Positions 1 through 64,000 of a stretch of 64,000 nt of DNA are shown here, piece by piece. Below the pieces are notes generated by a model that was not told the DNA's origin, did no database searches, and saw only the letters and a program-made list of their open reading frames with translations. The stretch spans positions 108,638 through 172,637 of the forward strand of contig NZ_RSCL01000021.1 of NCBI RefSeq assembly GCF_003991905.1, written 5' to 3'. Numbering within the stretch: the first letter of the stretch is position 1; every line of letters starts with the position of its first letter. The DNA is from Dulcicalothrix desertica PCC 7102. GTDB taxonomy: Bacteria; Cyanobacteriota; Cyanobacteriia; Cyanobacteriales; Nostocaceae. A program made the position numbers and the translations under genes.

Positions 1-824
1 ACGGTGGATATAACTACGCTACTACAGATTTAGCAGCACTACGGCAACGGATACAAAAAGAAGGCGCCAAACGATTAATATATGTTACCGATGCTGGACA
101 AGCAAACCACTTTGCAGGAGTGTTTCAAGTAGCACGTCGGGCAGAGTGGATACCCGATGACGTAGAAATCGTACATGTCCCATTTGGCTTAGTATTAGGA
201 GAAGACGGCAAGAAATTTAAAACCCGTTCAGGTGATACAGTACGGTTGCGGGATTTACTAGACGAAGCAGTAACTCGGTCGCGCAATGATTTAGAAACAC
301 GGTTAAAAGAATCTGGAAACAACGAAACAGAAGAATTTATCGCTAACACTTCCAAAGTAGTTGGTATCAGTGCCGTTAAATATGCAGACTTAAGCCAAAA
401 CCGAACCACGGACTATAAATTTAGCTTTGATAGAATGCTCTCGCTCAAAGGTAATACGGCGCCGTATATGTTGTATGCTTACGCACGGGTAAAGAGTATT
501 GGGCGTGAAGGTAATATTGATTTTAGTAAATTCGGTGCAGATGCAAAAATTCTGTTACGCGAAGAAAGTGAATTTACTCTAGCCAAACACATACTACAGC
601 TAGGCGAGGTAATTAATACTGTTGAGCAAGAATTATTACCTAACCGTTTGTGTGAATACTTGTATGATTTGAGCGATAAATATAACAAGTTCTACGAAAA
701 CTGTCCCGTTCTCAAATCAGAAGAACCAGTGCGGACATCACGGTTAGCGCTGTGTGACTTAACCGCGCGTACTCTAAAACTTGGTTTATCCCTACTAGGT
801 ATTCAAGTTCTAGAACGTATGTAA
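1..824 (+). CDS. argS: Arginyl-tRNA synthetase, C-terminal part (5' end outside window)
   Basis: The protein charges tRNA-Arg with arginine in the cytoplasm. The open frame runs from base 3 with no start in the window, giving about 273 residues. The first residues read [12 protein letters not shown] and then [11 protein letters not shown], which match the class I ArgS catalytic-domain signature. The central part contains a [12 protein letters not shown] segment corresponding to the KMSKS-like region. The C-terminal helical anticodon-binding domain (DALR type) ends in [14 protein letters not shown], a normal ArgS C-terminus. Only the N-terminal half is missing, because of the window edge. An internal ATG-like start near 120 is not the real start, since homology continues upstream of it. 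Confidence 0.96.
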
Positions 825-843
825 AAACAAACATGTTAACTCA

Positions 844-872
844 TCTGTGGAATGGGCATCCTTGCCCGTTCT
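844..872. repeat. Dispersed GGCATCC-TGCC repeat, copy 1
   Basis: A short imperfect palindrome around TGGGCATCCTTGCCC lies just behind argS. The same motif recurs near 5197, 6962, 31567, 35440, 44333 and 57598, always between genes, so it is a dispersed REP-like family. Confidence 0.7.
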
Positions 873-993
873 TAATTTGGGGTGTAAGCGCAAATGCATA
901 TGTGTAAATAGTTCAACATAGAAACTTGAATTGGGTTATTGATAATACAAGCGAAATTATTACAGGCGCCTATTTATTAAAAATAGTTCTAAA

Positions 994-1023
994 TTGCAAT
1001 TGGCGCGTCGCATTTGCTATAAT
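994..1023 (+). promoter_or_regulatory. Candidate sigma-70 type promoter of the Uma2 gene
   Basis: TTGCAA at 994-999 and TATAAT at 1018-1023 are separated by 18 bases and lie 33 bases before the ATG at 1056. This is a motif match only. Confidence 0.4.
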
Positions 1024-1055
1024 TTGTAAAATAAGTTTCTTCGTAGTACACGTTT

Positions 1056-1670: not shown

Positions 1671-1716
1671 TATCTAATGTTTATAACAATTTATACCAAT
1701 AATAAGCTTGCTATGA

Positions 1717-2113: not shown

Positions 2114-2164
2114 GCATTGCTATCAGCAATTCCTCAAGCTAATGGTTAATATCACCCGTTATGT

Positions 2165-3246: not shown

Positions 3247-3249
3247 CTA

Positions 3250-7047: not shown

Positions 7048-8451
7048 TTATTGGTTTATGGGGTCTGGTTGGATGCTGGGAATTGGTGGTTTTGTACCAT
7101 CAAGGGTTTGAATGGTTAGGACTTGCGGTGGTGTTGCATCGGGTGGGTAAAGAAAGTTTACTTCAATAAGGCGCCTTTGTCCTGGTCTTATTGGTAGTGC
7201 TACCAAAGACTCACCTGGTTGTCCGCGTTTTTGTACTAAATGTATATAGCTACTTTGGGCTTTTCCTAGGTCGTCACGGTATGTTACTCTCACTGTTCCT
7301 CTAAAAAATGTGGGACGTGCAGGTGTGGCAAAGAAGCGTAGTCCTTTTTTACTAAGTTGGTCTTCTTTTAGTGGTGTTTGAATTGAGAGACTGACCGTTT
7401 GGACGTTTTTAGTATTGTTATATAACGGTAATCTTAAGTTATATTGCACGCCGTAGTTACCATGAGCAACATATGCTGTATCTGGATAGCGAACTAGCAT
7501 GGGTGCGCTTTGAATTTGATTTGTTCCTAGGGTGCCACCATGAAGTGTGCTTATGCCGTAGGAGATTGCTTGTCCTGGTTGAGGAATTGTTAAGAATCTT
7601 GTTTTAGGAGTATCTGTAAGTAGCGCACGCCAATATGAACCTCTTGCTACTCCTGCAACTCGTCCATATTTTCTAGGGCCTGGTTGTGAAAGAGGGGTAG
7701 GTGGTATATCTCTGGGTGTGGAGAGTTCGCCGTTATCTAATATATTACGCCATTCTTCAATTGTCGGCGCCCGTTCAGTTCCATCAGTATTTGTACGTGC
7801 GGGAGTTGCTAAAGAAGCTATATATAATGTGCCATTACTCCGCAACCTTGCATAAGTAGAACGTCCATTTAAAGGAGGTGTTAGTCCTTGCACTGGGATT
7901 GGTGCATTTTGCAACATTTGATACTCGCCTGGAGCAATGACAATTTGTTTAGGAAAATTATTTTGTCTTAGTCCTCGTAAAACATCGCTCATTACTCGAC
8001 TACCTGGCCCCGCATAAACATTATTTTTTGTGTTTAAAGCGAAGGATGGTAACTCAATAAAAGGTGCATCCGGTTGACTTAGATAACTTGCGCCTTGAAG
8101 AACACTGACTGTTACAGGTTTTTTGCCGGGATTATATAAGATGATGCCAACATAAAGTGAGCGTAAGTTGTCAGGTGTTGGCGCCCCAAAAACGTGGTGG
8201 GCAAAAACATCAAACCTACCGTTGAAAGGAAAGTTTAAATGCGCTTCGGGATTTTTTTTGCCTGCACTTGGAAAAGTTGAGAGCAGAATTCCTTCATTGA
8301 CTACTTTCTCTGGACTATTACTGTTAAATACAGGCACACTATCCAACCTACCAGGAAGCGGTCTTATTTCCTGGGGAATGACAATTTCTTCGGGGGGAGG
8401 TGGGGTAGGAGTTGTCTGAGCAATAGGAGAGATTAGTAAGATTGGCAACAT
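7048..8451 (-). CDS. DUF3370 domain-containing protein, probably exported
   Basis: The 467-residue protein matches the cyanobacterial DUF3370 family. Characteristic blocks are LPGRLDSVPVFNSNSPE, NLRSLYVGIILYNPGKKPV, FIELPSFA, and GPGSRVMSDVLRG. The short hydrophobic N-terminus (MLPILLISPIAQTTPTPPPP) looks like a signal peptide or its end, followed by a proline-rich linker, so a periplasmic or surface location is likely. Length is normal for the family. Function is not known. The C-terminus is also proline-rich. The gene lies next to a divergent repeat unit that could act in transcript ending. Confidence 0.85.
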   Translation of the reverse strand: MLPILLISPIAQTTPTPPPPEEIVIPQEIRPLPGRLDSVPVFNSNSPEKVVNEGILLSTFPSAGKKNPEAHLNFPFNGRFDVFAHHVFGAPTPDNLRSLYVGIILYNPGKKPVTVSVLQGASYLSQPDAPFIELPSFALNTKNNVYAGPGSRVMSDVLRGLRQNNFPKQIVIAPGEYQMLQNAPIPVQGLTPPLNGRSTYARLRSNGTLYIASLATPARTNTDGTERAPTIEEWRNILDNGELSTPRDIPPTPLSQPGPRKYGRVAGVARGSYWRALLTDTPKTRFLTIPQPGQAISYGISTLHGGTLGTNQIQSAPMLVRYPDTAYVAHGNYGVQYNLRLPLYNNTKNVQTVSLSIQTPLKEDQLSKKGLRFFATPARPTFFRGTVRVTYRDDLGKAQSSYIHLVQKRGQPGESLVALPIRPGQRRLIEVNFLYPPDATPPQVLTIQTLDGTKPPIPSIQPDPINQ

Positions 8452-8483
8452 ATACTTACATATTTTTCTTTTTCAAGACGCTG

Positions 8484-9047
8484 TTATCTTTCCGAAAGTG
8501 CCAGTCTGTCTATAACTAATAAGAAGTCGTCCACAACAACCCGTATATTACTCTCTGTCAAAACTGGTACGTGTATAAATATGCAAGAGCTTTTGAAAGA
8601 ACTTGAGTGCAGGTAATCTAAAACCGAATAATAAAGTCCTTCGCATACAAACTTACCGCAGTCGTGGCTAATCTCTGTCGCTTGGCATGGTGCCACCAAT
8701 TCTTCTAAATTAACTGAGGTATGTAATGTACTTTCTTGATAATCGGACGGTAACATGCTCATACTACAATTAGTGAAAGCGGGTGTACTACGAGCATTTG
8801 ATTCCACGCTTAAGCGGCTACGACTTTCTGCCATTCCACAGCAAATTATATAGTCAGGTTGGGTTTCGCGGATTTTGGCTATTACTTGGTCAACTGCTCC
8901 TTTAACATCTACAGGTAGTTTTTGTACTAGTGTTAAAGCATGGGATAGGGCGCCAAGTCTAGTTACTTCCTCTAATAAATCATCACTAGAATTCGATTTG
9001 TGATGTGGCAGCCAAATGTCAAAAGAAGTTAATAATAATCTTTTCAT
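8484..9047 (-). CDS. Peptidase C15 (pyroglutamyl peptidase-like) family protein
   Basis: The 187-residue protein resembles pyrrolidone-carboxylate peptidase, which removes N-terminal pyroglutamate. The start LLTSFDIWLPHHKSNSS corresponds to the family's LiTGFdpFg...NPS block. A glutamate is seen in SVESNA (near 80), a cysteine in SHDCGKFVCEG (near 138) and a histidine in FIHVPVLTE (near 160), in the expected order of the Glu-Cys-His triad. Sequence around the triad deviates from well-studied members, so substrate specificity is uncertain. It is divergent from hisH with 64 bases between the starts. Confidence 0.78.
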   Translation of the reverse strand: MKRLLLTSFDIWLPHHKSNSSDDLLEEVTRLGALSHALTLVQKLPVDVKGAVDQVIAKIRETQPDYIICCGMAESRSRLSVESNARSTPAFTNCSMSMLPSDYQESTLHTSVNLEELVAPCQATEISHDCGKFVCEGLYYSVLDYLHSSSFKSSCIFIHVPVLTESNIRVVVDDFLLVIDRLALSER

Positions 9048-9111
9048 CGTAAAGAATATTAATTACAATATAAAAAGACTCCATAATAATAGTTTTATCG
9101 GGAGCAAGTCA

Positions 9112-9747
9112 ATGGCAGTGATTGCAGTCGTAGATTACGACATGGGAAATTTACACTCGGTCTGCAAAGGACTGGAAAAAGCTGGTGCAACTCCTAAAAT
9201 TACAGCGACTCCCAAAGTTATCGAACAAGCGGATGCAGTTGTTTTACCTGGTGTTGGCGCCTTCGACCCCGCCGTTCAACACATAAGAGCGCGCGGTTTA
9301 GAAGCACCCATAAGAGCAGCGATAGCTTCAGGTAAACCTTTCCTTGGCATCTGCCTAGGACTGCAAATTCTTTTTGAATCTTCAGAGGAAGGAACTCAAC
9401 CAGGACTCGGAATTATTAAAGGAAAAGTTAGGAGGTTCCGACCGGAAGCTGACATTACAATTCCTCATATGGGTTGGAACCAACTCCAAATTGCTCAACC
9501 AAAAAGTGTAATGTGGGAACATTTACCCCCACAACCTTGGGTTTATTTTGTTCACTCATATTATGTAGACCCAACTGACCCAAGTATACGCGCGGCAACT
9601 ATTACACATGGTTCACAAACTATTACCGCTGCTATTGCGCGCGACAACTTAATGGCAGTACAGTTCCATCCAGAAAAATCCTCTAATATTGGACTGCAAA
9701 TCCTTTCTAACTTCGTATCACAAGTTTGGACACGAGTTGCCGCGTAA
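9112..9747 (+). CDS. hisH: Imidazole glycerol phosphate synthase, glutaminase subunit
   Basis: HisH releases ammonia from glutamine and passes it to HisF to form imidazole glycerol phosphate and AICAR in histidine synthesis. The 211-residue protein starts at the ATG at 9112, preceded by a GGGAGC ribosome site. The open frame extends further upstream, but homology begins here with VVDYDMGNLHSV. The oxyanion strand reads LPGVGAFD and the nucleophile elbow GICLGLQILFESSEEG, with the catalytic Cys. VQFHPEKSS near the C-terminus gives the His-Glu pair. hisF is not adjacent, which is common in cyanobacteria. Confidence 0.96.
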   Translation: MAVIAVVDYDMGNLHSVCKGLEKAGATPKITATPKVIEQADAVVLPGVGAFDPAVQHIRARGLEAPIRAAIASGKPFLGICLGLQILFESSEEGTQPGLGIIKGKVRRFRPEADITIPHMGWNQLQIAQPKSVMWEHLPPQPWVYFVHSYYVDPTDPSIRAATITHGSQTITAAIARDNLMAVQFHPEKSSNIGLQILSNFVSQVWTRVAA

Positions 9748-9857
9748 ATTCGATTTTGGGTACTGGATTCTATATATTTAGATGAGTTGTTTATGTTTTT
9801 CCTTTTGTATTACACTAAACCCAATCTAATATCAAAAATCAAAAATCCAAAATAATA

Positions 9858-10406
9858 ATGAGCCTGAGAATACACGGGAATCGACTGTTAAAAACTTTAC
9901 CAGGGCTAGATACCCGTCCAACGAGTGCGCGGGTAAGAGAAGCATTATTTAATATTTGGCAGGGTGAAATATCAGAAAAAAGCTGGCTTGACATATGTAC
10001 AGGTAGCGGTTCGATGGGAGCAGAAGCACTATGTCGAGGCGCCAGTTTTGTCGTAGGTATAGAACAATCAAGTCGTGCGTGTGCAGTAATTAGTCAAAAT
10101 TGGCAGCAAGTAGCATCACAAGAGCAAACGTTTCAAATTTTGCGAGGTGACGTACTGCAAAAACTACCAAAATTAGCTCCACAGCAATTTGACCGCATCT
10201 ACTTCGACCCACCTTATGCAGCTAACTTATATAGAGCAGTACTAGAAATAATTGCCAAACATCACCTTTTACATCCAGAAGGTGAAATAGCTATCGAACA
10301 CAGTCCTACTGGATGGGAAGCGCTACAAATACCAACCTTAGAAATCTGTCGCGAAAAAGTCTACGGAAATAGCGCACTTACATTCTACAAAATGAGTGAA
10401 GAGTGA
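9858..10406 (+). CDS. rsmD: 16S rRNA (guanine(966)-N2)-methyltransferase
   Basis: RsmD methylates G966 of 16S rRNA during small-subunit assembly. The 182-residue protein has the family start LRIHGNRLLKTLPGLDTRPT followed by ARVREALFNIW. The SAM site is LDICTGSGSMGAEAL, and the catalytic DPPY motif is seen in YFDPPYAANLY. Length is normal. The stop codon lies at the start of a GAGTGCTGA repeat block, so the last residues (KMSEE) may come from the repeat. Confidence 0.93.
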   Translation: MSLRIHGNRLLKTLPGLDTRPTSARVREALFNIWQGEISEKSWLDICTGSGSMGAEALCRGASFVVGIEQSSRACAVISQNWQQVASQEQTFQILRGDVLQKLPKLAPQQFDRIYFDPPYAANLYRAVLEIIAKHHLLHPEGEIAIEHSPTGWEALQIPTLEICREKVYGNSALTFYKMSEE

Positions 10407-10540
10407 AGAGTGCTGAGTGCTGAGTGCTGAGTGCTAAGTGCTGAGTGCTGAGTTTTAATTCCTAATTCCTAATTCCTCACTCCTCACTCCTCACTCCTAA
10501 CTCCTAATTCTACTCAGCACTCAGCACTTTCAACTCAGCA
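10393..10540. repeat. Heptanucleotide tandem repeat block (GAGTGCT / CTAATTC types)
   Basis: Several copies of GAGTGCT on the left, TCCTAAT and TCCTCAC units in the centre and TCAGCAC units on the right make a large imperfect inverted repeat. This is the short tandemly repeated (STRR) type known in filamentous cyanobacteria. Related blocks occur at 13097, 15652, 17682 and 36690. Confidence 0.85.
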
Positions 10541-10546
10541 CTTGAT

Positions 10547-10663
10547 TTAGTTAATTCCTAACTGGTCACCACGCTTGTATTGAACATACGCCTTGTAGAA
10601 CAGACCAGCGAGAGTAACGGGAATCAAGCCAAGGACAATACCACACAATAAAGGTTCAATCAC
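10547..10663 (-). CDS. petG: Cytochrome b6f complex subunit PetG
   Basis: This tiny single-span subunit stabilises the cytochrome b6f complex in the thylakoid membrane. The 38-residue product begins [20 protein letters not shown] and ends [10 protein letters not shown], matching PetG along its whole length. It starts with GTG at 10663-10661, preceded by AAGGAG about 7 bases upstream. The 207-base gap to the divergent cytochrome gene must hold the promoters of both. Confidence 0.95.
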
Positions 10664-10870
10664 TTTTAATCTCCTTGTAGAAATTATTAAACTTTTGTAT
10701 CTGTCTTGTGATTCTACCAAATTTCGTAGCTTTCGGCTCTACATCTACCTTACGGCTAAAATTTGCCAAGAAAAATATCCGCTTGTGCTTGCAGACACTG
10801 CTAAGAACTTTTAAGCTATGTGTATGAAATGAAAAAAACTTTGTAAACCTCTCATTTAACAGTAAACCTT

Positions 10871-11245
10871 TTGGATAACCACATTACCACACCCTCGATT
10901 CTCGTACAGCGCGCGATGTTAATCATGCTGTCGGTTGTACTTGCTTTTATTTTGGGCATGTTTGCCGTGCGTGTGGTGCAAGCTTCCGACCCATACGTTA
11001 AAACAGTGCTATCTCTCAACGGCGACTCTGTTCAAGGACATGCTATCTTTCAAATTAACTGCGCTGGATGTCATGGTTTAGAAGCTGCCGGTAGAGTTGG
11101 GCCAAGCTTGCAAGGTGTTTCCAAACATAAATCTCGCTACGGACTAATTCACCAAGTTATCAGCGGTGACACTCCCCCCATGCCCAAATTTCAACCCAGC
11201 ACCCAAGAAATGGCTGACCTATTAAGTTACTTAGAAACCTTATAA
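10871..11245 (+). CDS. Membrane-anchored c-type cytochrome, CytM-like
   Basis: The 124-residue protein has one N-terminal membrane span (AMLIMLSVVLAFILGMFAV) and a single haem domain. The haem-binding CAGCH motif lies near residues 65-69. The methionine ligand is probably in PPMPKFQP. The combination of an uncleaved anchor with a short c-domain fits the cyanobacterial CytM family, proposed to modulate photosynthetic and respiratory electron flow. The start taken here is TTG (10871). A later ATG at 10916 would shorten the cytoplasmic lead but keep the anchor. It is divergent from petG, another electron-transfer gene. Confidence 0.82.
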   Translation: MDNHITTPSILVQRAMLIMLSVVLAFILGMFAVRVVQASDPYVKTVLSLNGDSVQGHAIFQINCAGCHGLEAAGRVGPSLQGVSKHKSRYGLIHQVISGDTPPMPKFQPSTQEMADLLSYLETL

Positions 11246-11251
11246 AAACCA

Positions 11252-11560
11252 TCAGTAAACCAACTCAAAAGGTTTACCTGGTTTTTGAGGTTGCCAACCA
11301 GCAGAAATTGCCCTCTCTATCGCGCACTTCACATCAGCAGGATAAACAGGAACAATAACCTGTGTCCAAAAACTGCTCGGATGTCCTTGTGGCATTAGCA
11401 CCACTAAATTGGCGCCAGGGTTTAGAGCATGTTCAACAGCCACCGTCAAATGTACCCCAGGATAATCACCTTGAGCATGAGTCGGTTTCTTACGAACACG
11501 CCAACGGTAACTCTCACCATCCACAACTATTAATCTAGAACCTTTCTTTGGAATCGCCAT
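11252..11560 (-). CDS. Conserved hypothetical protein
   Basis: The 102-residue basic protein begins MAIPKKGSRLIVVDGESYRWRV, which suggests a beta-rich N-terminal half. It ends WQPQKPGKPFELVY. No known motif, signal peptide or membrane span is seen. Its stop is only 6 bases from the stop of the convergent cytochrome gene. Function is unknown; small cyanobacterial proteins of this shape are common beside mobile or accessory genes. Confidence 0.6.
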   Translation of the reverse strand: MAIPKKGSRLIVVDGESYRWRVRKKPTHAQGDYPGVHLTVAVEHALNPGANLVVLMPQGHPSSFWTQVIVPVYPADVKCAIERAISAGWQPQKPGKPFELVY

Positions 11561-11597
11561 ATCACTTTTGTAATATATTACTACAATTGTAACATAG

Positions 11598-11625
11598 GTA
11601 GAGACCGTATTAATTCGGTCTCTAC
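11598..11625. repeat. GTAGAGACC palindrome
   Basis: GTAGAGACCGTATTAATTCG followed by GTCTCTAC is a near-perfect palindrome of the TAGAGAC family, placed between two minus-strand genes. Confidence 0.75.
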
Positions 11626-11642
11626 AGTGTGCGGATGTTACA

Positions 11643-12185
11643 TTAGACGGCGCCTATTAATATAGATAAATAGCTCTGAACAATTTTCACAGCTTCAGAT
11701 AGCGTCACTTTAGAAGTATCAATAATAGGAATATTCGTCGCTCGTGCTTGTGTACGCAAAAACCTTGCCCAGGTTCGCATACTGAAATTAGCTAGTTCTG
11801 GTTGTTTTCGTTCATTACAAAGACGTAAGTGCATCTCTTTCCAAGCGCAGTCAATCAAAATAATAGAATATTGCTTTACACCAAAACTATTACAAGCATC
11901 TTCAATAAAGTTAAAACGAGCTTGCCCTTCAAAAATTACTGTAGATGTATTTGGGTAATTATCAGTAATATATTTAACATGTTTATGAGTTAACAATTCT
12001 TGATATCGTTTTAACGAACCAGCTTGTTCCAACATCTCATCAATAGATGCAACTCCGTGAGCATCTGAAAAGAAAAATGCATAGTCAGTATTCGTATTAT
12101 TCGCTTGTATTGTTTTTACTATCGTCGTTTTTCCGACACCAGAGGCGCCTGTCAAAAAGAGTATAGCTGGACTTGGTTGCGACAT
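11643..12185 (-). CDS. P-loop NTPase, kinase-like, substrate unknown
   Basis: The 180-residue protein has a Walker A motif (GASGVGKTT, residues 13-21) right at the N-terminus and an overall size like a small-molecule or nucleoside kinase. TVIFEGQARF near 82 is a possible Walker B-type strand. ILIDCAWKEMHLRLCNERKQ near 110 resembles the lid region of adenylate-kinase-like folds, with several arginines. The C-terminus carries IPIIDTSKVTLSEAV, typical of the last strand of such kinases. The substrate cannot be told. It is divergent from the small gene that precedes the HNH endonuclease. Confidence 0.7.
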   Translation of the reverse strand: MSQPSPAILFLTGASGVGKTTIVKTIQANNTNTDYAFFFSDAHGVASIDEMLEQAGSLKRYQELLTHKHVKYITDNYPNTSTVIFEGQARFNFIEDACNSFGVKQYSIILIDCAWKEMHLRLCNERKQPELANFSMRTWARFLRTQARATNIPIIDTSKVTLSEAVKIVQSYLSILIGAV

Positions 12186-12246
12186 ATAATATAAGATAAG
12201 CTGGCAAGACCAGAGAGGGCAACATTACAACTAAAAATCTAAACCT

Positions 12247-12504
12247 ATGACTGTATCAATAGACAAGACACCTAAAGTTTATGACGATATTATAGAGTTC
12301 ATAGCTTCTGGCACTACTCCTGAAAGAGTTCTGAATTTTAAACTATCTGAAGCCGCGCAGGAGCGCTTGGAAGATTTGGCTTACGCACATGAAATGGGTA
12401 AGCTTACAGAAGAAGAGAGAGAAGAGTTAGATGATTTTCTCGTATTAGAGCATATAATGACGTTAGCGAAAGCACGCGCTCATAAGTACATTTCTAATAA
12501 GTAG
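12247..12504 (+). CDS. Small acidic protein, partner of the downstream HNH endonuclease
   Basis: The 85-residue protein starts MTVSIDKTPKVYDDIIEFIA and is mostly helical and acidic (LTEEEREELDDFLVLEHI). Its stop is 8 bases before the start of the HNH gene, so the two are surely co-transcribed. I recall similar short proteins beside HNH genes in cyanobacteria. The layout is that of a small protein plus nuclease pair, in which the small protein might be an inhibitor, but nothing in the sequence proves this. Confidence 0.6.
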   Translation: MTVSIDKTPKVYDDIIEFIASGTTPERVLNFKLSEAAQERLEDLAYAHEMGKLTEEEREELDDFLVLEHIMTLAKARAHKYISNK

Positions 12505-12512
12505 TTATCATT

Positions 12513-12959
12513 GTGACTCGTCCATACATTAATCAAGAACTTAGGCGTTTAGTCATTGGTCGCGCTAATTGTCTATGCGAATACTGTTTAATACCAGATT
12601 CTTATAAATCCTTAAGTCACCAAGTTGACCATATAGTCAGTGTAAAACATGGTGGTTCTTCTCTTTCAGATAATCTCTGTTATTCGTGTATTTTTTGTAA
12701 CCTCCAAAAAGGTTCTGATTTAGGCTCAATTAATTGGCAAACCGGAGAACTAGTTAGATTTTTTAACCCACGTCGAGATAATTGGAGCGATCATTTTCGT
12801 TTAGATGGAGCAATTATTCAACCATTAACGAATATCGGGGAAGTAACTGCTCGTATATTTAAGTTTAATAATAATAAGCGAATTTCTGAAAGGCAGACAT
12901 TGATAGAAATTGGGGTATATCTACCTTCAGCCCAGGAAAATACAAATAAAGAAGATTAA
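12513..12959 (+). CDS. HNH endonuclease
   Basis: The 148-residue protein is an HNH nuclease. CEYC near residue 22 and CIFCN near 60 form the zinc-binding pairs. VDHIVSVKHGG between them gives the catalytic D-H pair, and SDNLCYSC supplies the central Asn. The start is GTG at 12513. The remainder (80-148) lacks a recognisable targeting domain. A hairpin terminator follows the stop, closing a two-gene transcript with the 85-residue partner. Confidence 0.88.
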   Translation: MTRPYINQELRRLVIGRANCLCEYCLIPDSYKSLSHQVDHIVSVKHGGSSLSDNLCYSCIFCNLQKGSDLGSINWQTGELVRFFNPRRDNWSDHFRLDGAIIQPLTNIGEVTARIFKFNNNKRISERQTLIEIGVYLPSAQENTNKED

Positions 12960-12989
12960 GAATTTGTTGCTTTAACTTTAATAGTAAGA

Positions 12990-13021
12990 TTCCCGATTTC
13001 TTTGAGAAGTCGGGAATTTTT
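12990..13021 (+). terminator. Intrinsic terminator of the HNH operon
   Basis: TTCCCGA, seven-odd loop bases and TCGGGAA form a stem that is followed by a run of five T. It lies about 30 bases after the HNH stop codon. Confidence 0.75.
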
Positions 13022-13042
13022 GTAACAGCATCTATCTTTTTT

Positions 13043-13140
13043 AACTCCTGTACGGGCAGGTTCAATTAAATTTTCCTCTTGCACGCAGGATACAGATAAA
13101 CCTGCCACTCCCAACTCCTAACTCCTAACTACTAACTCCT
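13043..13140. repeat. GTACGGGCAGGTT inverted repeat plus TAACTCC tandem units
   Basis: CTGTACGGGCAGGTTC at the left and AAACCTGCC at about 13098 form an inverted pair. Several AACTCCT units follow and run into the 3' end of the epimerase gene. The same composite (GTACGGGCGGGTT with AACTCCT) lies at 40637-40705. Confidence 0.7.
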
Positions 13141-14096
13141 AACTGATATAATTCCTTCACCCATTGCCATTCTTGGGTTAAGCCTTCGCGTAATGATATT
13201 TGTGGTTGCCATCCTAGAAGTTGCTTGGCTTTGGTAATATCGGCGCCTGTATGTCGTGCATCACCCATTGCTCTTTCTATATGTTGCCTTTTAATAGGTT
13301 GCTCTACTATTTCTTCCATCATATTAAGTACATCAGATAGCACTGCACGACTACCACCACCAATATTAATGATATGTCCTATAGCTCCCGGCGCCTCTGC
13401 TGCTGCTAGGTTAGCTGCTACTGCATCACTAATATACGTAAAGTCGCGCGTTTGTTCACCGTCCCCATACACAGGTATTGCTTCGTTTTCAATAACAGCT
13501 TTAAAGAATTTATGAAATGCCATGTCTGGACGCTGACGTGGCCCGTAAACTGTAAAGTAACGCAGAGCTACAAATGGTACGCCAAAGTTTTTATAATACA
13601 GTCCGCATAATCTCTCTGCTGCTAGTTTAGTAATGCCATATGGTGATACTGGCGCCGGACAAATACCTTCGTGTGTGGGCAATGTTTCCGCATCTCCGTA
13701 AATGCTCGATGTTGATGCAAATACCAAGCGTTTGAGGTGCTTTGCGTCTTTGGCTGCTTCTAATAAGATTTGTGTAGCACTAATATTACGTTCTGTATAC
13801 GAACGAAACCCTTTACCCCACGATGCGCGTACACCTGCTTGTGCTGCTTGGTGATAAACCACATCAACATCTGATAAAAGCCTTTGCCAGTCTACAAACT
13901 GAACATCTTCTTCGATTAACTCAAAATTTGGGTTGTTGTGTAAATGGACGATATTTTTACGTTTGAGCGCTGGGTCATAGTAACTGTTGAACTCGTCTAT
14001 ACCAATTACTTGTTGCCCTTGTTTTAATAAAGCTTCGACCAAGTGCGAGCCTATAAAACCTGCGGCGCCTGTTACTATACTTTTATTCATGTTCAT
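13125..14096 (-). CDS. NAD-dependent sugar-nucleotide epimerase (UDP-glucuronate epimerase type)
   Basis: The 323-residue short-chain dehydrogenase acts on a nucleotide sugar, probably UDP-glucuronate or a related sugar, for cell-envelope polysaccharide. The Rossmann glycine motif is GAAGFIGSH (residues 9-17). HQAAQAGVRASW and FASTSSIYG match UDP-GlcA 4-epimerases. YGITK gives the catalytic Tyr and Lys. DFTYISDAV and LGWQPQISLREGL complete the fold. Two starts are possible, the ATGs at 14096 and 14090. The stop lies inside a TAACTCC repeat, which also encodes the tail QLGVSS. Neighbours give no clue to the pathway. Confidence 0.85.
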   Translation of the reverse strand: MNMNKSIVTGAAGFIGSHLVEALLKQGQQVIGIDEFNSYYDPALKRKNIVHLHNNPNFELIEEDVQFVDWQRLLSDVDVVYHQAAQAGVRASWGKGFRSYTERNISATQILLEAAKDAKHLKRLVFASTSSIYGDAETLPTHEGICPAPVSPYGITKLAAERLCGLYYKNFGVPFVALRYFTVYGPRQRPDMAFHKFFKAVIENEAIPVYGDGEQTRDFTYISDAVAANLAAAEAPGAIGHIINIGGGSRAVLSDVLNMMEEIVEQPIKRQHIERAMGDARHTGADITKAKQLLGWQPQISLREGLTQEWQWVKELYQLGVSS

Positions 14097-14369
14097 TGTT
14101 TTAATATCATTAACTACAATATTTAAAGACCAATATTTAAAGCGTAATCTTTATACCAATATAACCGCTACTAAGAAAGCGATGTTTTTTGTCTTCTCCT
14201 AGGTTGTTTGATTTTGTTTCAAAAGTCCTCAGTATAAACTTTGAATTTTAGGATTATTTAAGAATTTTTGCGATTAGGTGACAGCCTAGAGAAACTACAT
14301 ATCAATTGGTGTAATATTAAAAATTGTCACAAAGTCTGGTTAATGGTGGCGCCATATTGAGGGAAAAGG

Positions 14370-15656
14370 GTGAAAGTTTTAGTTGTTGGTAATGGTGGGC
14401 GCGAACATGCCCTGGCTTGGAAACTTCTACAATCGAAGCAAATTGAGCGTGTTTTCTGTGCCCCAGGAAATGGTGGAACTGCCAGTATGGAACGCTGTGA
14501 AAACGTTCCTGTAAAGGTTGATGATTTTGAAGGGATTAACCAAATAGCCCACTCTGAAGGTGTTTCATTAGTAGTCGTTGGTCCCGAAGTCCCTTTAGCT
14601 AAGGGTATTACAGACTTTTTACAAGCCAAAGGTTTAAAAGTATTTGGCCCAAGTCGTGCTGGCGCCCAAATTGAGGCAAGTAAAGCATGGGCAAAAGCAT
14701 TGATGCAAGAAGCACATGTACCTACTGCGGCTTCTGCGGTATTTACTGATGTGAAAGCAGCGAAATCCTATGTCAAATCTAAAGGGGCGCCTATCGTTGT
14801 TAAAGCTGATGGGTTAGCAGCAGGCAAGGGTGTGATAGTCGCTCAAACTGTTGAATCCGCCTTTGCGGGACTTGATGCAATTTTTGGCGGGCAGTTTGGA
14901 AGCGCAGGTAATTTTGCTGTTATTGAAGAATTTTTAACTGGACAAGAAGTTTCTGTTTTAGCACTAACTGATGGTGAGACTATTTGCCCTTTATTACCTG
15001 CACAAGACCATAAACGTATTGGTGAAGGTGATACTGGCGAAAATACGGGTGGTATGGGCGCCTATGCTCCCGCTCCTATTGCCACCGATGCGTTAATGGC
15101 TAGAGTCCAAACTGAAGTACTAGAACGTACAATTGCAGCTTTAAAAGCCAAGGGTATTGACTATCGAGGTGTTTTATATGCTGGCTTAATGGTTTCAGAA
15201 GATGGAACTTTTAAGGTCTTAGAATTTAATTGTCGTTTTGGCGACCCCGAAACACAAGTCATTTTACCTTTACTTGAAACACCCTTAGAAGAACTTCTTT
15301 TAGCCTGCGTAGAAAGGCGCCTAGCACAAATGCTTCCCATCGCATGGAACACTGGTGCATGTGCCACTGTTGTCGCTGCTAGTGGCGGTTATCCTGGTGA
15401 TTACACCAAAGGTAAAATTATCACAGGATTTAATGATGCTGTTTCGACTGGCGCCACTGTATTTCACGCCGGAACAACGTTACAATCATCAACACAAGCT
15501 TCAGAAGTATGTACTGATGGTGGTAGAGTGTTAAATGTCACAGGTGTGGGAGAAGACTTTAAACAAGCACTCAACCAAGCGTATGCAGGAATTGCCAAAA
15601 TTAACTTTGACGGCATGTACTATCGAAGAGACATTGGGCATAAAGTTTTAAGTTAG
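14370..15656 (+). CDS. purD: Phosphoribosylamine--glycine ligase
   Basis: PurD joins phosphoribosylamine and glycine using ATP in purine synthesis. The 428-residue protein starts with GTG at 14370 (MKVLVVGNGGREHALAWKL), the normal family start. The ATP-grasp region shows VVKADGLAAGKGV near 143-155. EFLTGQEVSVLALTDG and QDHKRIGEGDTGENTGGMGA are exact family blocks. EFNCRFGDPETQ gives the metal ligands. The stop is supplied by a GTTAGGA repeat. nblS follows on the same strand, an arrangement I recall from other cyanobacteria. Confidence 0.97.
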   Translation: MKVLVVGNGGREHALAWKLLQSKQIERVFCAPGNGGTASMERCENVPVKVDDFEGINQIAHSEGVSLVVVGPEVPLAKGITDFLQAKGLKVFGPSRAGAQIEASKAWAKALMQEAHVPTAASAVFTDVKAAKSYVKSKGAPIVVKADGLAAGKGVIVAQTVESAFAGLDAIFGGQFGSAGNFAVIEEFLTGQEVSVLALTDGETICPLLPAQDHKRIGEGDTGENTGGMGAYAPAPIATDALMARVQTEVLERTIAALKAKGIDYRGVLYAGLMVSEDGTFKVLEFNCRFGDPETQVILPLLETPLEELLLACVERRLAQMLPIAWNTGACATVVAASGGYPGDYTKGKIITGFNDAVSTGATVFHAGTTLQSSTQASEVCTDGGRVLNVTGVGEDFKQALNQAYAGIAKINFDGMYYRRDIGHKVLS

Positions 15657-15716
15657 GAGTTAGGAATGAGGAATGAAGAATTAACTCCTAACTCCTAACT
15701 CCTAACTCCTAACTCC
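15652..15716. repeat. TTAGGAG heptanucleotide tandem repeats
   Basis: GTTAGGA units point one way and TAACTCC units the other, giving an imperfect hairpin behind purD. The purD stop codon is in the first unit. Confidence 0.85.
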
Positions 15717-15803
15717 GCTTCGTTCGCAATTTATGTAAATAACTGTTAATTTTTTAGTTGTTGCAGTTTGTTTATAAAAAACTACTAACAACTTAAATTT
15801 AAA

Positions 15804-17705: not shown

Positions 17706-17735
17706 GAGTTAGGAGTTAGGAGTTAGGAGTTAGGA
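17682..17735. repeat. TTAGGAG heptanucleotide tandem array overlapping the nblS 3' end
   Basis: About seven head-to-tail GTTAGGA units follow one another. The nblS stop codon lies inside the second unit. Confidence 0.88.
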
Positions 17736-17745
17736 ATGTATTAAA

Positions 17746-17863
17746 TGTCATGCTGAGGAACGAAGCATCTCAAAAATTTTGATGCTTGTTTAATGTCATG
17801 AGTCATGAACGTTAACGCAGTTTTCCCGCAGGGTAGCATCTCAAAAATTTTGATGCTTGTTTA
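17746..17863. repeat. Direct and inverted repeats of the TGTCATGCTGAG type
   Basis: AGCATCTCAAAAATTTTGAT occurs twice (near 17765 and 17836), each copy able to fold on itself through CATC...GATG. TGTCATGCTGAGGAACGAAG at the left resembles the element at 41422. Confidence 0.65.
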
Positions 17864-17890
17864 AAAGTAAAGTTACAACCCGTTTTTAAT

Positions 17891-17917
17891 GTAGAGACGT
17901 GACACGTCACGTCTATA
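17891..17917. repeat. GTAGAGACGTGAC palindrome
   Basis: GTAGAGACGTGAC and GTCACGTCTAT form an imperfect palindrome of the GTAGAGACG family, 18 bases beyond the stop of the zinc-ribbon gene. Confidence 0.75.
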
Positions 17918-17934
17918 TGTCTTATCGTCTATTA

Positions 17935-18303
17935 TCAAGTAAAAGCAGCTATCATCAAACAAACAACAAACAAAGCCACAAACAGCAACAGCGTTTGATT
18001 TCGTCGTACCCAACTCTGTAAACTCTCATTAGAACTGGGTTTACGATACTGCTGTTGCTTCTGCGCTTGATACTCCTCAAAATTTTGATACAAAGTACAC
18101 TCTTTCGCTGTAGGACGCTGCGGATAATTACAGCTATCATCCACATGGTAAGTACAAGAGTCACACAAATACTCACCCTTTCCCGCACGGTGCAACGGAA
18201 TACCAGGATGTCCAAATGCTTTTAACTCAGTTCGACAAAAAGGGCAAGTCACAGCTTGTGAGTCAACTTGCTGTTCACAACGGGGACAAAATATACTAGC
18301 CAC
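17935..18303 (-). CDS. Zinc-ribbon protein with a C-terminal membrane anchor
   Basis: The likely start is the GTG at 18303 (VASIFCPRCEQQV), although the frame stays open to 18393. From that start the protein has 122 residues. A zinc ribbon is formed by CPRC near residue 6 and CPFC near 21. A second cysteine set follows (YLCDSCTYH and DDSCNYP, then ECTLY), giving an unusual cluster of eight or more cysteines. The C-terminus ends in one membrane span (LLLFVALFVVCLMIAAF). Such proteins are conserved in cyanobacteria; the role is unknown. Confidence 0.7.
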   Translation of the reverse strand: MASIFCPRCEQQVDSQAVTCPFCRTELKAFGHPGIPLHRAGKGEYLCDSCTYHVDDSCNYPQRPTAKECTLYQNFEEYQAQKQQQYRKPSSNESLQSWVRRNQTLLLFVALFVVCLMIAAFT

Positions 18304-18439
18304 CTGAATAAATATAATTAATATAAGGTTTACTCGATTGTACTCACTCTCAGGTGGAAATAAGATGTTAGATTTTAATAGAATACAGCACAAGGTAAAT
18401 AAGGACGCAGCAGAAATAAGAGTTAAGGTTAAGCTTACT

Positions 18440-18600
18440 AACTCTATTGATGAAGGTTTAATTAGTGGTAAGAGAAATTCGGTATAAACCGGACATCTCG
18501 CTTAATTGTCCTTCCTGATACACCCGACACCAGAGATGACCGAACTCGCGGCTACTCTATAAAGGTGGGTATTTCGCTACTTCGTAATAGCAGTACAGGC
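18440..18600 (-). ncRNA. Candidate guide-type (omega) RNA / right end of the TnpB element
   Basis: Downstream of tnpB on its own strand lies GC-richer noncoding DNA with nested pairings: GGACA with TGTCC around AATTAAGCGAGA, then CGGT with ACCG around TTAT. In TnpB elements the guide RNA is transcribed from this place and ends at the transposon boundary. No direct proof; the limits are estimates. Confidence 0.35.
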
Positions 18601-20070: not shown

Positions 20071-20365
20071 GTAGATATCACCCCCTTCAGTACGGATGTA
20101 TATTTTAAATCAAATACTTTCAGGAGACGCATTGCAAGTCTAAATATGACAGTTTAACGTTTTTAGCCGATTGTCACATGAGTCTTACTAATACATTAGT
20201 TCGTCAAAGCCGAATTTATTCAATGCACGCCAATAAATTTATATTGAGACACTACTTGAAGTTGATTTTCGCTCTTTACGTATGAGTATTCGATCGCGCG
20301 TTGAAGCACTTGACTGTCCAGCTTTTGCCGTATTTGTCTAATAAATTCCAATAAAACTTGATTAG

Positions 20366-20725: not shown

Positions 20726-20745
20726 TGGCAGACAGGCGCCCACCC

Positions 20746-25769: not shown

Positions 25770-25770
25770 T

Positions 25771-26202: not shown

Positions 26203-26217
26203 AAATTAAAGAAAACT

Positions 26218-60953: not shown

Positions 60954-60972
60954 TTTCAAACCCGGTATCAAA

Positions 60973-62037
60973 TTAAAAGAACCATCCGTAAGAATGTAAA
61001 CCTTTACCCAGCAAATTGACACCTAAATAACAAATCCACACAACAACAAAGCCACTAGCCGCTAAAATTGCAGGGCGCCGACCTTGCCAACCACGTGTAA
61101 TTCTCGAATGTAAGTAAGCAGTAAATACCAACCAAGTAATTAAAGCCCAAGTTTCTTTAGGGTCCCAACTCCAGTAAGAACCCCAAGCTTCGTTTGCCCA
61201 AACGGCGCCTGCAATAATACCAATTGTCAGTAAAGGAAAACCTAAACCAATGACACGGTAACTAATATTATCTAATGTTTCTGCAAGACTTAAACGCTGT
61301 GGTGATAAAGTTGATGCTGTTACTGCTTGAGTATCAGCCGCAACAATATTTAAAACCGCAGAAGAACCATTTCCATTATTATTACTGCCTTTGTAACGCC
61401 CATAGCCGTTGTTATCAGCAATACTATTTACATCTGGTTCCGTTACAAGCTCACCAGCTTTATGCAAACGATAACCATTACTACGATATCCGCCGGCACC
61501 AAACGAACTACCTTGAAGTTGAATATCTTGTCCTTTTGTAACAACAAGAAATGCAATTGCTAACAACGAACCAACCATTAGCGCAGAATAACTTAGCATC
61601 ATTACACTAACATGCATCATCAACCAGTTAGATTTGAGTGCAGGTACCAAAGGTTCAGCTTTTTGCATCTCAGACGGTAAAGTTAATGTTGCAAAAGCTG
61701 TAATACCCATAGCGACAGGCGCCGTTGCTACTCCAACTAAACGACTCCGGCTAGTATTTTCAGCTATAAGATGTACTGTAGTAATACCCCACGCCAAAAA
61801 AAACAGCGACTCGTATAAATTACTAAGAGGGAAATAACCCGCTTCAATCCATCGCGCTCCTAACAATGTTGCCATGCATAAATTCGCTATCGCCATTCCC
61901 GCAGTCCCCAGTGCAGGTAAAAAGGGTAGGTTCCCAAACGCCGCGCCGCTCCAATATACCAGCATCGTAATAAACAAAACTGCAAAAGAAGCATTGTCCA
62001 GCCAGTTCTGGAGGACAACCAGATTGACAAAATTCAT
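60973..62037 (-). CDS. ccsA: Cytochrome c biogenesis protein CcsA (ResC/Ycf5 type)
   Basis: CcsA/ResC, with CcsB (Ccs1), delivers heme across the thylakoid or plasma membrane for c-type cytochromes. The 354-residue protein has about eight membrane spans. The tryptophan-rich heme-handling motif reads [18 protein letters not shown]. Two external histidines are supplied by MMHVSVMM and by HSRITRGW. A variable loop rich in G and N (about 175-225) is inserted in the middle. Databases call this protein CcsB or CcsA in different genomes. The CytM-like and MauG-like proteins of this window would need this pathway. Confidence 0.93.
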
Positions 62038-62131
62038 AAAACGTGTTCTCCAGTCAATTCCTGAACAGTTTATTCTATTACTTAAATCCTAACTTTTTCT
62101 GACGATTTGTTAAATGTATTGCGTCTTTGGT

Positions 62132-63844
62132 TTACGGTGTTACAGTCGGACTAGGCAACGGCGCTGGCTTTCCACCTTTTTTAAGCGAGATAAATATATC
62201 GTAACGATTGCTGCGGTTATCACTAACTGCACTCGTTACTCCAATCGAACGTGTAGCGTTTAAAAATATTTGCTGGTTAGGAAACAAAGGAGGCAACGGA
62301 AAGTTTTTAGAGGTACGTTCCACATCTAAGAAAAATTGACCGTTAATTGGATTCAGTTCTGATGGAACTGCTTTTTGAAAAGCTTGAGTGCGTGCAAGCG
62401 AGTTATCCGATTGATTCGTAGTCAAAATTTTCTCAGCAATCGGCGCCCCTAATGCTATAAAAGCAACATCATCATCCATCCATCCATGACTGGCAGTTAA
62501 AGTACCAAATGGCCCAATCCAATTAATAATCGGCTTACCTAACGCTTGCTTCTCTTCTATTCTAAACTGGTACTGACTACGCATAGCCTCATCAAGCTGT
62601 TTGAGAGCAGCATCAGCGCGTTGACGATTGTTAGTCTTTACCATAAATACTAACGCGGCGCGGAAAGTTTCATCTTGACTATCTTTAGAAGTCGGAATTA
62701 CTGATACCGAAAACTCACCATTCATCCAACTCAAAAAATCGCGCTCTAAATCCATATTAACCCAAGATTTAAAGCCATTACGTAATTGCTCGGGCGGCAT
62801 TGGTGATAAAGGATTATTTTGCGATGTTGAACTATAATCTGCCCAAGCACGCGCTAAATTTCCACCTGACAGCATCATCAGTGTTTCAGCAGGGACACGA
62901 TTTTGCATTTCCCCCGCACTGTTATCCACTCTTAACACTCGTGAACTATTAGGGTTTAACCAAGAAACACCTTTAAGCCTAACTCCCTCATTTTCTAAAG
63001 TAATTGTTCCTGCAAGACCTTGATTAGTTTGCAATTGCGATAACACTTGAGCTGGAAACTGACGGTTTGGAGCTGCACTCGCAATTTTCGCACTCGTTGG
63101 TACATTTATATAGAATTGACCAAAAGGCTGGTAGCTAGAAATTTTAGAAATATTATTCGCATACCCAGGAACTGTAGAAAGCGATGTTTTTGCTTGGTAA
63201 GCATCAATTGCTTTCTCCATTGCCTTTGAATCATCAGTAATAACTACATATTTATTTTCAATAACCGAGACAGCAAAATCCTCATTTGTGCTACTGGGAT
63301 TAATATCAATCTCTTTTATTGGTATATTTTTATACTGGCGTTCTTTTAAACTGGCGCCTTTTTTAGCTTGAAGTTGAGTTAGAGCAGTTTTAGCATTTTG
63401 AGCATTTTTAATTGGTAATACCAAAACTAACTGTTGACTACTAGCAGTTCTAATATTTTCAGCCACAGGTTTAGCAGGTGGTTTTGAGCTATCAACATTA
63501 GCAAGAACCGCTAAAGTTACTTCTTCTCCTACCCAAGGTTGGATATCTTTGTGAAAATCGTAACCATTATTACTAAGAAAACGGTCGCGTAACTGAACTA
63601 TATTTTTATCGATTTCTGCTTGTACCTCGCTAGTTCCAAACTGACGTAACTGCTCCCACTGTCTAACATCAGTTGTTAACGAAACAGCGAACAATGCGTC
63701 TTGAGGAATAATAGTCGCTCCAGGTGGTAAATCCCTAGATAATGGCTTTCCTTGTGTTAATAGCCAGTATCCAGCAATACCACCACCAATCAGTAATCCA
63801 GCAGAAGATAACGTCAGTATCAGAGACGGTTTCTTTTTTTTCAT
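62132..63844 (-). CDS. DUF3352 domain-containing protein, probably exported
   Basis: The 570-residue protein (ATG at 63844; an upstream ATG at 63871 is possible) begins with a lysine-rich signal peptide or anchor (KKKKPSLILTLSSAGLLIGG). It then matches DUF3352: PPGATIIPQDALFAVSLTTD, IQPWVGEEVTLAVLAN, and AMEKAIDAYQAKTSLSTVPG. The body is long and repetitive in secondary structure. The C-terminus is rich in proline (PAPLPSPTVTP). Function is unknown; the location is probably periplasmic. Its 94-base gap to ccsA shows no repeat. Confidence 0.85.
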   Translation of the reverse strand: MKKKKPSLILTLSSAGLLIGGGIAGYWLLTQGKPLSRDLPPGATIIPQDALFAVSLTTDVRQWEQLRQFGTSEVQAEIDKNIVQLRDRFLSNNGYDFHKDIQPWVGEEVTLAVLANVDSSKPPAKPVAENIRTASSQQLVLVLPIKNAQNAKTALTQLQAKKGASLKERQYKNIPIKEIDINPSSTNEDFAVSVIENKYVVITDDSKAMEKAIDAYQAKTSLSTVPGYANNISKISSYQPFGQFYINVPTSAKIASAAPNRQFPAQVLSQLQTNQGLAGTITLENEGVRLKGVSWLNPNSSRVLRVDNSAGEMQNRVPAETLMMLSGGNLARAWADYSSTSQNNPLSPMPPEQLRNGFKSWVNMDLERDFLSWMNGEFSVSVIPTSKDSQDETFRAALVFMVKTNNRQRADAALKQLDEAMRSQYQFRIEEKQALGKPIINWIGPFGTLTASHGWMDDDVAFIALGAPIAEKILTTNQSDNSLARTQAFQKAVPSELNPINGQFFLDVERTSKNFPLPPLFPNQQIFLNATRSIGVTSAVSDNRSNRYDIFISLKKGGKPAPLPSPTVTP

Positions 63845-63904
63845 TGAGACACACACACTTACCCGTGCCATTGGGACTTACACCTCATCAATATTGCTTA
63901 AATT

Positions 63905-63992
63905 AATCAGAAACCGGGTTTCTACGCATTCCTTGTCGCAGACAAATTGTCATTTTTATTACAATATATCAACAAGAAACCCGGTTTCTTAG
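63905..63992. repeat. Pair of AGAAACCCGGTTTCT palindromes
   Basis: AGAAACCGGGTTTCT and AGAAACCCGGTTTCT lie about 65 bases apart in inverted orientation. They belong to the family tandemly arrayed at 29423. Confidence 0.8.
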
Positions 63993-64000
63993 ATTTTAAA

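Follow-up and report, generated by a model that had tools for sequence, protein, structure and literature searches.

GGCGCC as an alternate highly iterated palindrome throughout the Calothrix PCC 7103 clade, with a solitary M.HindV-type methyltransferase as its probable driver

Highly iterated palindrome (HIP) sequences have been known since 1995, according to PMC4390886. In Elhai (2015, PMC4390886), GGCGCC is an alternate HIP that has replaced HIP1 in Calothrix PCC 7103 and D253, alternate HIPs are found at densities of about 500-2500 per Mb, the known cases are called sporadic, and the presence of two methyltransferase copies is stressed. PCC 7103, which belongs to the same genus as the genome analyzed here, was included in our sample. 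The replacement by GGCGCC is not new in kind, having been published in 2015 for this close relative in that paper. The present analysis adds the genus-wide occurrence of the trait, the solitary state of the methyltransferase, an apparent second case, and data on occupancy by reading frame, spacing, and losses and gains of sites.

The window, the whole stretch of DNA analyzed, comprises 64,000 nt of the Dulcicalothrix desertica PCC 7102 genome (G000). A preliminary description had estimated by eye about 104 copies of GGCGCC, an excess of about 25-fold, and had seen no HIP1, GCGATCGC. The window contains exactly 104 GGCGCC sites, no GCGATCGC, and one CGATCG. Base composition predicts 3.54 GGCGCC sites and first- and second-order Markov models predict 5.36 and 5.18, so that the excess is 29-fold by the former and about 20-fold by the latter; in 100 first-order simulations the count averaged 5.5 and never exceeded 13. 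The expectations from third- and fourth-order models were higher (16 and 56), in our reading because the sub-words are themselves inflated by GGCGCC, since masking the sites reduced the expectation to 2.0-4.4 (Markov orders 3 to 1). By raw count GGCGCC was the most frequent 6-base palindrome of the window, followed by AATATT with 95 copies, and GATC was strongly depleted (9 found, 148-156 expected). An RNA-family scan of the window produced no match.

The first bases of the sites in the initial part of the window lie at positions 63, 458, 965, 2942, 3026, 3541, 4056, 4124, 4669, 4731, 4876, 4934, 4994, 5921, 7170, 7766, 8180, 8949, 9256, 10038, 11411, 11649, 12144, 13242, 13390, 13651, 14064, 14348, 14661, 14786, 15057, 15316, 15450, 16665 and 17669. 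They continue at 20735, 21046, 21167, 22064, 23125, 24393, 25227, 25533, 25656, 25878, 26128, 26854, 27283, 27346, 27696, 28883, 30675, 30840, 31928, 32955, 33075, 34313, 35897, 36168, 36948, 38213, 38406, 38537, 38678, 38725, 38818, 39751, 40351, 41082, 41649, 41862, 42204, 42418, 42960 and 43543. The remainder begin at 44138, 45691, 48511, 50705, 50802, 51156, 51866, 52536, 52770, 53293, 54099, 54829, 55357, 55766, 56965, 56996, 58325, 58764, 59204, 59501, 59606, 59934, 60201, 60234, 61074, 61204, 61718, 62442 and 63353.

The same pattern extends over the 11.42-Mb assembly, where GGCGCC occurs 19,393 times, about once per 600 bases, and the reversed control CCGCGG once. HIP1 was found 58 times, close to its reversed control (62), and GCGATCGC was thus overrepresented neither in the window nor in the genome. 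Neither of the results that would have spoken against a replacement of HIP1, GGCGCC near expectation genome-wide or HIP1 abundant elsewhere, was therefore observed. In 220 kb of genus sequence the observed/expected ratio (O/E) of GGCGCC was 30.6, and a search of the flanks for a longer core identified the six bases only, with a mild shortage of G before and C after the site (0.55x). The other members of the GRCGYC family were depleted with respect to composition (GACGCC/GGCGTC 0.41, GACGTC 0.10), and GGTGCC was over-represented (1.65x).

The earlier interpretation, that GGCGCC takes the place of HIP1, was borne out genome-wide and in all seven genus genomes sampled. These carry 7,475-20,380 sites each (1150-1711 per Mb), as opposed to 0-1,053 sites, at densities of up to 111 per Mb, in the 138 other family genomes sampled. 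The contrast is also seen at a single homologous locus, where four genus loci had 28-35 GGCGCC and 0-1 HIP1 and eight cyanobacterial loci (seven genomes) outside the genus had 0-2 GGCGCC and 11-30 HIP1; this search found 24 loci, 12 of which, proteobacterial matches with 29-33% identity, were left out. A survey of the phylum covered 386 genomes, and two outliers were followed up. G152, considered as a further case on account of 2,493 GGCGCC (control, 38), was dropped, being GC-richer with GGCGCC at only 2.0x and CGATCG at 7x in a 20-kb sample.

About half of the positions compatible with the encoded amino acids are occupied by GGCGCC in each of the three reading frames (1126/2274, 398/827 and 530/930). 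Gly-Ala pairs were written GGCGCC in 1131 of 2282 cases, where codon usage predicts 56.5, and O/E was 31-49 in non-coding and 24-32 in coding DNA. In 733 kb of relatives, HIP1 filled 230/281, 174/211 and 87/195 of the positions in its three classes. Spacing was tested genome by genome with every site in the block. Occupancy was low when another GGCGCC lay 6-30 bp away (8/55 in G000, 2/20 in G127, 6/37 in G138 and 1/23 in G115). A within-pair test for exclusion gave p = 0.04, 0.02 and 0.10 in the other genomes and was not significant in G000 (3 pairs with both sites, 37 with one, 80 with none; odds ratio 0.71, p = 0.76). The data suggest that neighbours closer than about 30 bp are excluded, with one test failing in the window's own genome. 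HIP1 in relatives showed no such short-range exclusion (10/13 or 10/14 positions with a close neighbour were occupied). At longer range, Gly-Ala occupancy was 292/522, 325/589, 232/466 and 63/129 at 101-200, 201-400, 401-800 and 801-1500 bp from the nearest other site. Occupancy varies between genes (odds ratio 2-3 for pairs more than 33 bp apart). The saturation at about 1 kb that the published mismatch-repair model includes is not visible in these data, in which gene-level differences in occupancy could mask such an effect.

Sites of G000 were conserved in G115 in 136 of 173 cases, compared with 238 of 428 for other hexamers made of G and C only. With respect to G076, conservation (51/70) was below that of the average hexamer (11110/14138) and above that of G/C-only hexamers (143/218). 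Protection is confined to the site: fourfold-degenerate G/C positions changed at a rate of 0.056 inside sites and 0.121 outside within 15 bp, and the flanks within 15 bp were unprotected (672 changes, 574.6 expected). On the terminal branches of five genus genomes, 124 losses of GGCGCC were counted versus 9 gains, and the comparison with G115, unpolarised by an outgroup, gave 15 losses and 1 gain. Therefore, the sites are not being built at equilibrium in the blocks examined. Among synonymous losses of Gly-Ala sites, C>T at the inner base (38) far outnumbered C>T at the outer base (5). Simple hypermutability by deamination was considered as the origin of the C>T losses, and matched controls made this less likely: at 40/537, inner C>T was only slightly more frequent than in these controls (178/3427; GGC|G, 17/254), and the outer bases changed in 6/537 cases compared with 306/6339. 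The spectrum thus owes as much to protection of the outer bases as to a hot spot of deamination. Separately, substitution was higher nearer to sites, an observation confounded by the identity of the genes located far from sites, and no claim is made from it.

A cytosine methyltransferase of the M.HindV type was found in all seven genus genomes, the best match in each being 81-100% identical to the copy of the window's own genome, a candidate gene located outside the window at C4:441733-442668 of G000. The locus is conserved across the six genus loci compared. The genus enzymes form one clade (support 100/99). In a clustering of 65 loci, a subset of the PF00145 matches, a second methyltransferase cluster, of 370 aa, is also present in 7/7 genus genomes. 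A second close copy was not found in G000, where the next best match after the 100% one had 41% identity over residues 6-174. Among the matches listed (30 of 4,351 plasmid records), the best non-cyanobacterial ones were 55-57% identical, and one is annotated as a HindV methylase. We take the recognition sequence of M.HindV-type enzymes to be GRCGYC, which includes GGCGCC, and homology suggests that the genus enzyme shares it. The partner nuclease RE_HindVP (PF09519) was detected in none of the seven genus genomes, in 32 of the 138 other family genomes, and adjacent to the methyltransferase in 10 of the 14 outgroup loci compared. Possession of the methyltransferase in the absence of the nuclease does not by itself suffice for enrichment, because seven family genomes outside the genus with this configuration have only 0.5-42.6 GGCGCC per Mb. 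One of this kind, G021, has an intact HIP1 (137x in the 160 kb sampled).

An apparent second, independent origin with the same enzyme type was found in G227, a member of another family, where CGGCGCCG occurs 4,834 times compared with 18, 27, 31 and 32 times in four congeners. Among the five members of that genus sampled, only G227 has an M.HindV-type enzyme; the next best match was 41% identical over residues 2-161 of 340. Of the 19 other frames of 100 aa or longer in its 12-kb locus, 6 were scanned, and RE_HindVP was absent from these.

We consider GGCGCC to be the alternate HIP of the Calothrix PCC 7103 clade, most likely driven, as we believe on balance, by a solitary M.HindV-type cytosine-5 methyltransferase with predicted GRCGYC specificity. 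The enzyme would have become fixed in the ancestor of the genus without its restriction nuclease, in a host lineage that had already lost HIP1. As suggested by the loss spectrum, an indirect and equivocal indicator, the inner C of the palindrome may be the base that it methylates. A process that depends on this methylation and works on the six bases themselves would then favour gaining and keeping GGCGCC itself rather than other GRCGYC forms, and would operate at the DNA level, whatever the reading frame, until about half of the permissible positions were filled. Speaking against this reading are the low GGCGCC densities of the seven family genomes outside the genus that have the enzyme and no RE_HindVP, the 370-aa methyltransferase cluster also shared by the genus, the excess of losses over gains, the small margin of inner C>T over its controls, and the conservation below that of the average hexamer in G076.

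Elhai proposed a ratchet dependent on mismatch repair and GmeC, in which a GGmeCGCC newly arisen on the nascent strand is kept by repair, and this continues until no base is more than about 1000 nt from a site; the sites themselves may be functionless. It joins the methyltransferase, the loss of HIP1 and GGCGCC as they are found in the genus, its fixation on the palindrome predicts the depletion of the other GRCGYC members, and G021, the only bulk-sampled genome with the methyltransferase, without the nuclease and lacking the GGCGCC HIP, keeps HIP1 as the set-point idea predicts. We nonetheless regard it as unlikely, if a serious contender: Gly-Ala occupancy shows no rise with distance, where a ratchet that saturates at about 1 kb should leave a smaller fraction of positions occupied close to existing sites; flanks within 15 bp have no protection; G000 lacks the second copy of the methyltransferase to which a critical role is ascribed in PCC 7103; the trait is not sporadic within the sampled genus; and gains are rare. 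Selection acting on a binding site for a protein (Chi-like, uptake-signal-like or nucleoid), with the methyltransferase incidental, seems somewhat less probable again. Site-confined protection and conservation, low occupancy beside a neighbour at 6-30 bp, similar behaviour in all frames and the high non-coding O/E all agree with it. However, it leaves unexplained both the choice of GGCGCC over other words and the involvement of the same enzyme type in the apparent second origin, the exclusion rests on genomes other than G000, HIP1 in relatives lacks such exclusion, and losses exceed gains.

In E. coli, Dcm and Vsr inflate words in an analogous manner through repair of T:G mismatches, and a Vsr-like very-short-patch repair could raise GGCGCC at the cost of GGTGCC. 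The dominance of the inner C to T step among losses fits this reading, which is very improbable and largely refuted by two results: Vsr (PF03852) was detected in 0/60 relatives, including all seven genus genomes, while 5/14 control genomes were positive, and GGTGCC is over-represented, not under-represented. Nothing was found in favour of an excess due to codon usage, GC content or a mobile repeat, the least credible reading of all, which is refuted by the Gly-Ala codon result; the non-coding O/E is as high as the coding one or higher, GGCGCC has no extended flank, and congeners conserve the sites.

Beyond the methyltransferase as likeliest driver in the genus, a wider proposition is offered tentatively, as one we do not yet hold probable. 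The identity of the HIP in a cyanobacterium without HIP1 may be dictated by the solitary cytosine methyltransferase that it happens to carry; gain of an M.HindV-type enzyme would have rewritten about half of the permissible positions at least twice (in Calothrix and, within a genus of five, in G227), and the methylated site would be kept by a local, site-confined mechanism and not by long-range mismatch-repair saturation. The genus-wide trait and the apparently recent second replacement are natural experiments that link the repeated word with a single type of enzyme. The data on spacing and substitution are directly relevant to the mismatch-repair model in the literature.

Compared with the alternate HIP in Elhai (2015, PMC4390886), the present case shares the word, the near absence of HIP1, the strong depletion of GATC, a methyltransferase of putative GrCGyC type and a density inside the 1000-2000 per million stated in that paper, and the excess of a GC-rich palindrome, the low HIP1 and the density expected of an alternate HIP are present; it differs in extending to 7/7 genus genomes, in the detection of RE_HindVP in 0/7, and in G000 having no second close copy. 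Like HIP1, GGCGCC is genome-wide and palindromic and fills many amino-acid-compatible positions (about 50%) in more than one frame. Unlike HIP1, it is another sequence, without a GATC core, and shows low occupancy beside a neighbour closer than about 30 bp, a comparison in which n for HIP1 is only 13-14. With HindV-type restriction-modification, presumably specific for GRCGYC, the genus has in common a methyltransferase of the same family; in contrast to that system, it has no detected RE_HindVP, and its sites are not avoided but massively enriched.

An exact count returned 104 GGCGCC sites in the 64,000 bases of the window (39.0% GC), matching the by-eye estimate of the preliminary description. 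Base composition predicts 3.54 sites and first- and second-order Markov models 5.36 and 5.18; in 100 first-order simulations the count averaged 5.5 and never exceeded 13. HIP1 (GCGATCGC), which that description had not seen, was indeed absent, and CGATCG occurred once. The window (G000:C21:108638-172637) belongs to an assembly of 11.42 Mb in 109 contigs, and this whole Dulcicalothrix desertica genome (G000) contains 19,393 GGCGCC sites and 58 copies of HIP1 versus 62 of its reversed control. GATC (9 versus 148-156 expected, about 16-fold below Markov) and GGCC (20 versus 83, about 4-fold below) were depleted in the window, which suggests additional restriction or methylation systems. A CheA-like kinase gene adjoins a methyl-accepting chemotaxis protein gene at 23658-27432. 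At 63909-63998 lies a dispersed repeat, about 90 bp long, whose two ends are near-identical palindromes, AGAAACC[C/G]GGTTTCT. It is predicted to form a strong hairpin (z -5.7), and the matches listed include dozens of related copies from the genus.

Comparison with relatives, suggested in the preliminary description, covered 145 genomes of the family. All seven sampled genomes of the genus had 7,475-20,380 GGCGCC sites (control, 1-8); the other 138 had 0-1,053, at most 111/Mb. At one homologous locus, GGCGCC and HIP1 numbered 28-35 and 0-1 in four loci of the genus, versus 0-2 and 11-30 in eight cyanobacterial loci (seven genomes) outside it. An island at about 23.2-36.1 kb of G000 contig C7 (locus L246, 20001-38000) holds seven HIP1 and three GGCGCC sites between GGCGCC-rich flanks, and the 18-kb stretch G000:C7:20001-38000 has 49 GATC. 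The island is probably DNA newly acquired from a HIP1-rich relative; comparable HIP1 clusters lie on G000 contigs C25 and C12 and on contig C7 of Calothrix sp. PCC 7103 (G127).

Occupancy was determined in 1.44 Mb (five blocks from four genomes of the genus, partly orthologous and hence not independent). GGCGCC encoded 1,131 of 2,282 Gly-Ala pairs, versus 56.5 expected, and filled 49.5%, 48.1% and 57.0% of the compatible positions in the three frames; observed/expected ratios were 31-49 outside coding regions and 24-32 within them. HIP1 in relatives (733 kb) occupied 230/281, 174/211 and 87/195 positions of its three compatible classes. Elhai 2015 (PMC4390886) proposes a GmeC-dependent mismatch-repair ratchet that saturates once sites reach a density of roughly one in 1000 nt. 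When all sites of a block were counted, the fraction of Gly-Ala pairs encoded by GGCGCC, by distance to the nearest other site, was 17/135 at 6-30 bp, 79/198 at 31-60, 114/224 at 61-100, 292/522 at 101-200, 325/589 at 201-400, 232/466 at 401-800, 63/129 at 801-1500 and 4/11 beyond 1500. The rise up to 1 kb predicted by saturation was not visible for GGCGCC or HIP1, a comparison in which a distance trend could be masked by gene-to-gene variation in occupancy (odds ratios of 2-3 for distant pairs). The new evidence gave 1-kb mismatch-repair saturation no support. The share below 31 bp was low in every genome (8/55, 2/20, 6/37 and 1/23). A stricter test asked how often two nearby Gly-Ala pairs were both sites, given their own rates; odds ratios were 0.71 in G000 (p = 0.76), 0 in PCC 7103 (p = 0.04), 0.10 in PCC 7716 (G138; p = 0.02), 0 in NIES-4105 (G115; p = 0.10) and 0.22 when pooled (p = 0.003). 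Given the value for G000, exclusion of close neighbours is only suggested in the window's own genome. No such exclusion was seen for HIP1 in 13-14 cases.

GGCGCC sites of G000 were conserved above other G/C-only hexamers in six of six comparisons. Against NIES-4105, 136/173 sites were kept versus 238/428 of those hexamers; against HK-06 (G076), 51/70 were kept, below the average hexamer (11110/14138). Fourfold G/C positions changed at a rate of 0.056 inside sites versus 0.121 outside, within 15 bp, and substitutions in sites and surroundings revealed no protection of the flanks as a whole. The evidence points to a process acting locally at the site. Five genomes yielded 106 single-step losses: 78 were inner C>T or G>A, with six of the same type at C5/G2 and ten at outer positions. 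Inner C was near background (40/537 versus 178/3427 in matched controls) and outer C was protected (6/537 versus 306/6339), a pattern that fits, without proving, a putative inner m5C escaping upkeep. Losses outnumbered gains on terminal branches (G000 16/2, PCC 7103 60/2, PCC 7716 14/3, the MAG FI2-JRJ7 (G030) 23/2, HK-06 11/0); therefore, sites are eroding in the blocks examined. The largest absolute count was that of PCC 7103, where 60/322 ancestral sites were lost in aligned blocks (G127 loci L131-L147; two gains), with 15/280 in G000 and 14/229 in PCC 7716. Loss in PCC 7103 is high despite an M.HindV-type enzyme 99% identical to the G000 copy. Purifying selection with a lag is one possible explanation for upkeep and erosion together.

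HindV recognizes GRCGYC. A METHYLTRANSFERASE search (C5-methyltransferase type) returned 9-17 matches per genome of the genus, and clustering of 65 fetched loci gave two clusters common to all seven, one of them M.HindV-like. Its best non-cyanobacterial plasmid matches, among those listed, were 55-57% identical, and one is annotated as HindV methylase. The gene occupies a conserved locus in the six genus loci compared (20 kb each), and the M.HindV-type sequences of the genus form a single clade (support 100/99). HK-06 has pieces at contig ends (residues 1-86 and 208-312, 94-95% identity) and an additional full-length copy, 83% identical. The partner nuclease, RE_HindVP, was found in none of the seven genomes and in 32 of the 138 outside the genus; among 14 outgroup loci compared, 10 have it next to the methyltransferase. 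Median GGCGCC density was 1,545/Mb in the genus (7 genomes); outside it, 0.66/Mb with both genes (27), 20.3/Mb with the methyltransferase alone (7), 4.55/Mb with neither (97) and 0.92/Mb with fragments or the nuclease only (7). Nuclease absence therefore accompanies weaker GGCGCC avoidance, yet is insufficient for enrichment. G021, the one of the seven methyltransferase-alone genomes sampled in bulk, has an intact HIP1 (137x). G103, in which neither gene was found, still has no GGCGCC in 240 kb; other causes of avoidance therefore exist. The new evidence favours a solitary candidate GRCGYC methyltransferase as the driver.

An apparent second, separate origin of GGCGCC iteration was found among 386 genomes of the phylum in G227, from another family, with 9,489 sites in 3.8 Mb. 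Within its genus of five, an M.HindV-type enzyme occurs only in G227, 54% identical to the G000 copy; the next best match there reaches 41% over about half of the length. RE_HindVP was absent from the six neighbouring frames scanned, of 19. CGGCGCCG numbered 4,834 in G227 versus 18, 27, 31 and 32 in its four congeners. Its GC was higher in the stretches seen (0.52 versus 0.45-0.49), as was the reversed control of this 8-mer (418 versus 28-74); composition therefore accounts for part of the rise. A 12.1-kb stretch of G227 had no HIP1 and one CGATCG, and five short loci of the congeners had 3, 2, 2, 0 and 3 HIP1.

A search of titles and opening lines of abstracts, mostly from open-access journals, found no other work on GGCGCC as a HIP. 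Elhai's paper (PMC4390886) reports GGCGCC as an alternate HIP in Calothrix PCC 7103 and D253 and argues that exceptional HIPs are sporadic. In PCC 7103, according to that paper, GATC stands at 16% of its expected frequency, the CGATCG methyltransferase is broken, and two methyltransferases are of the GrCGyC type. GGCGCC is thus confirmed as a genus-wide alternate HIP of a kind already known.
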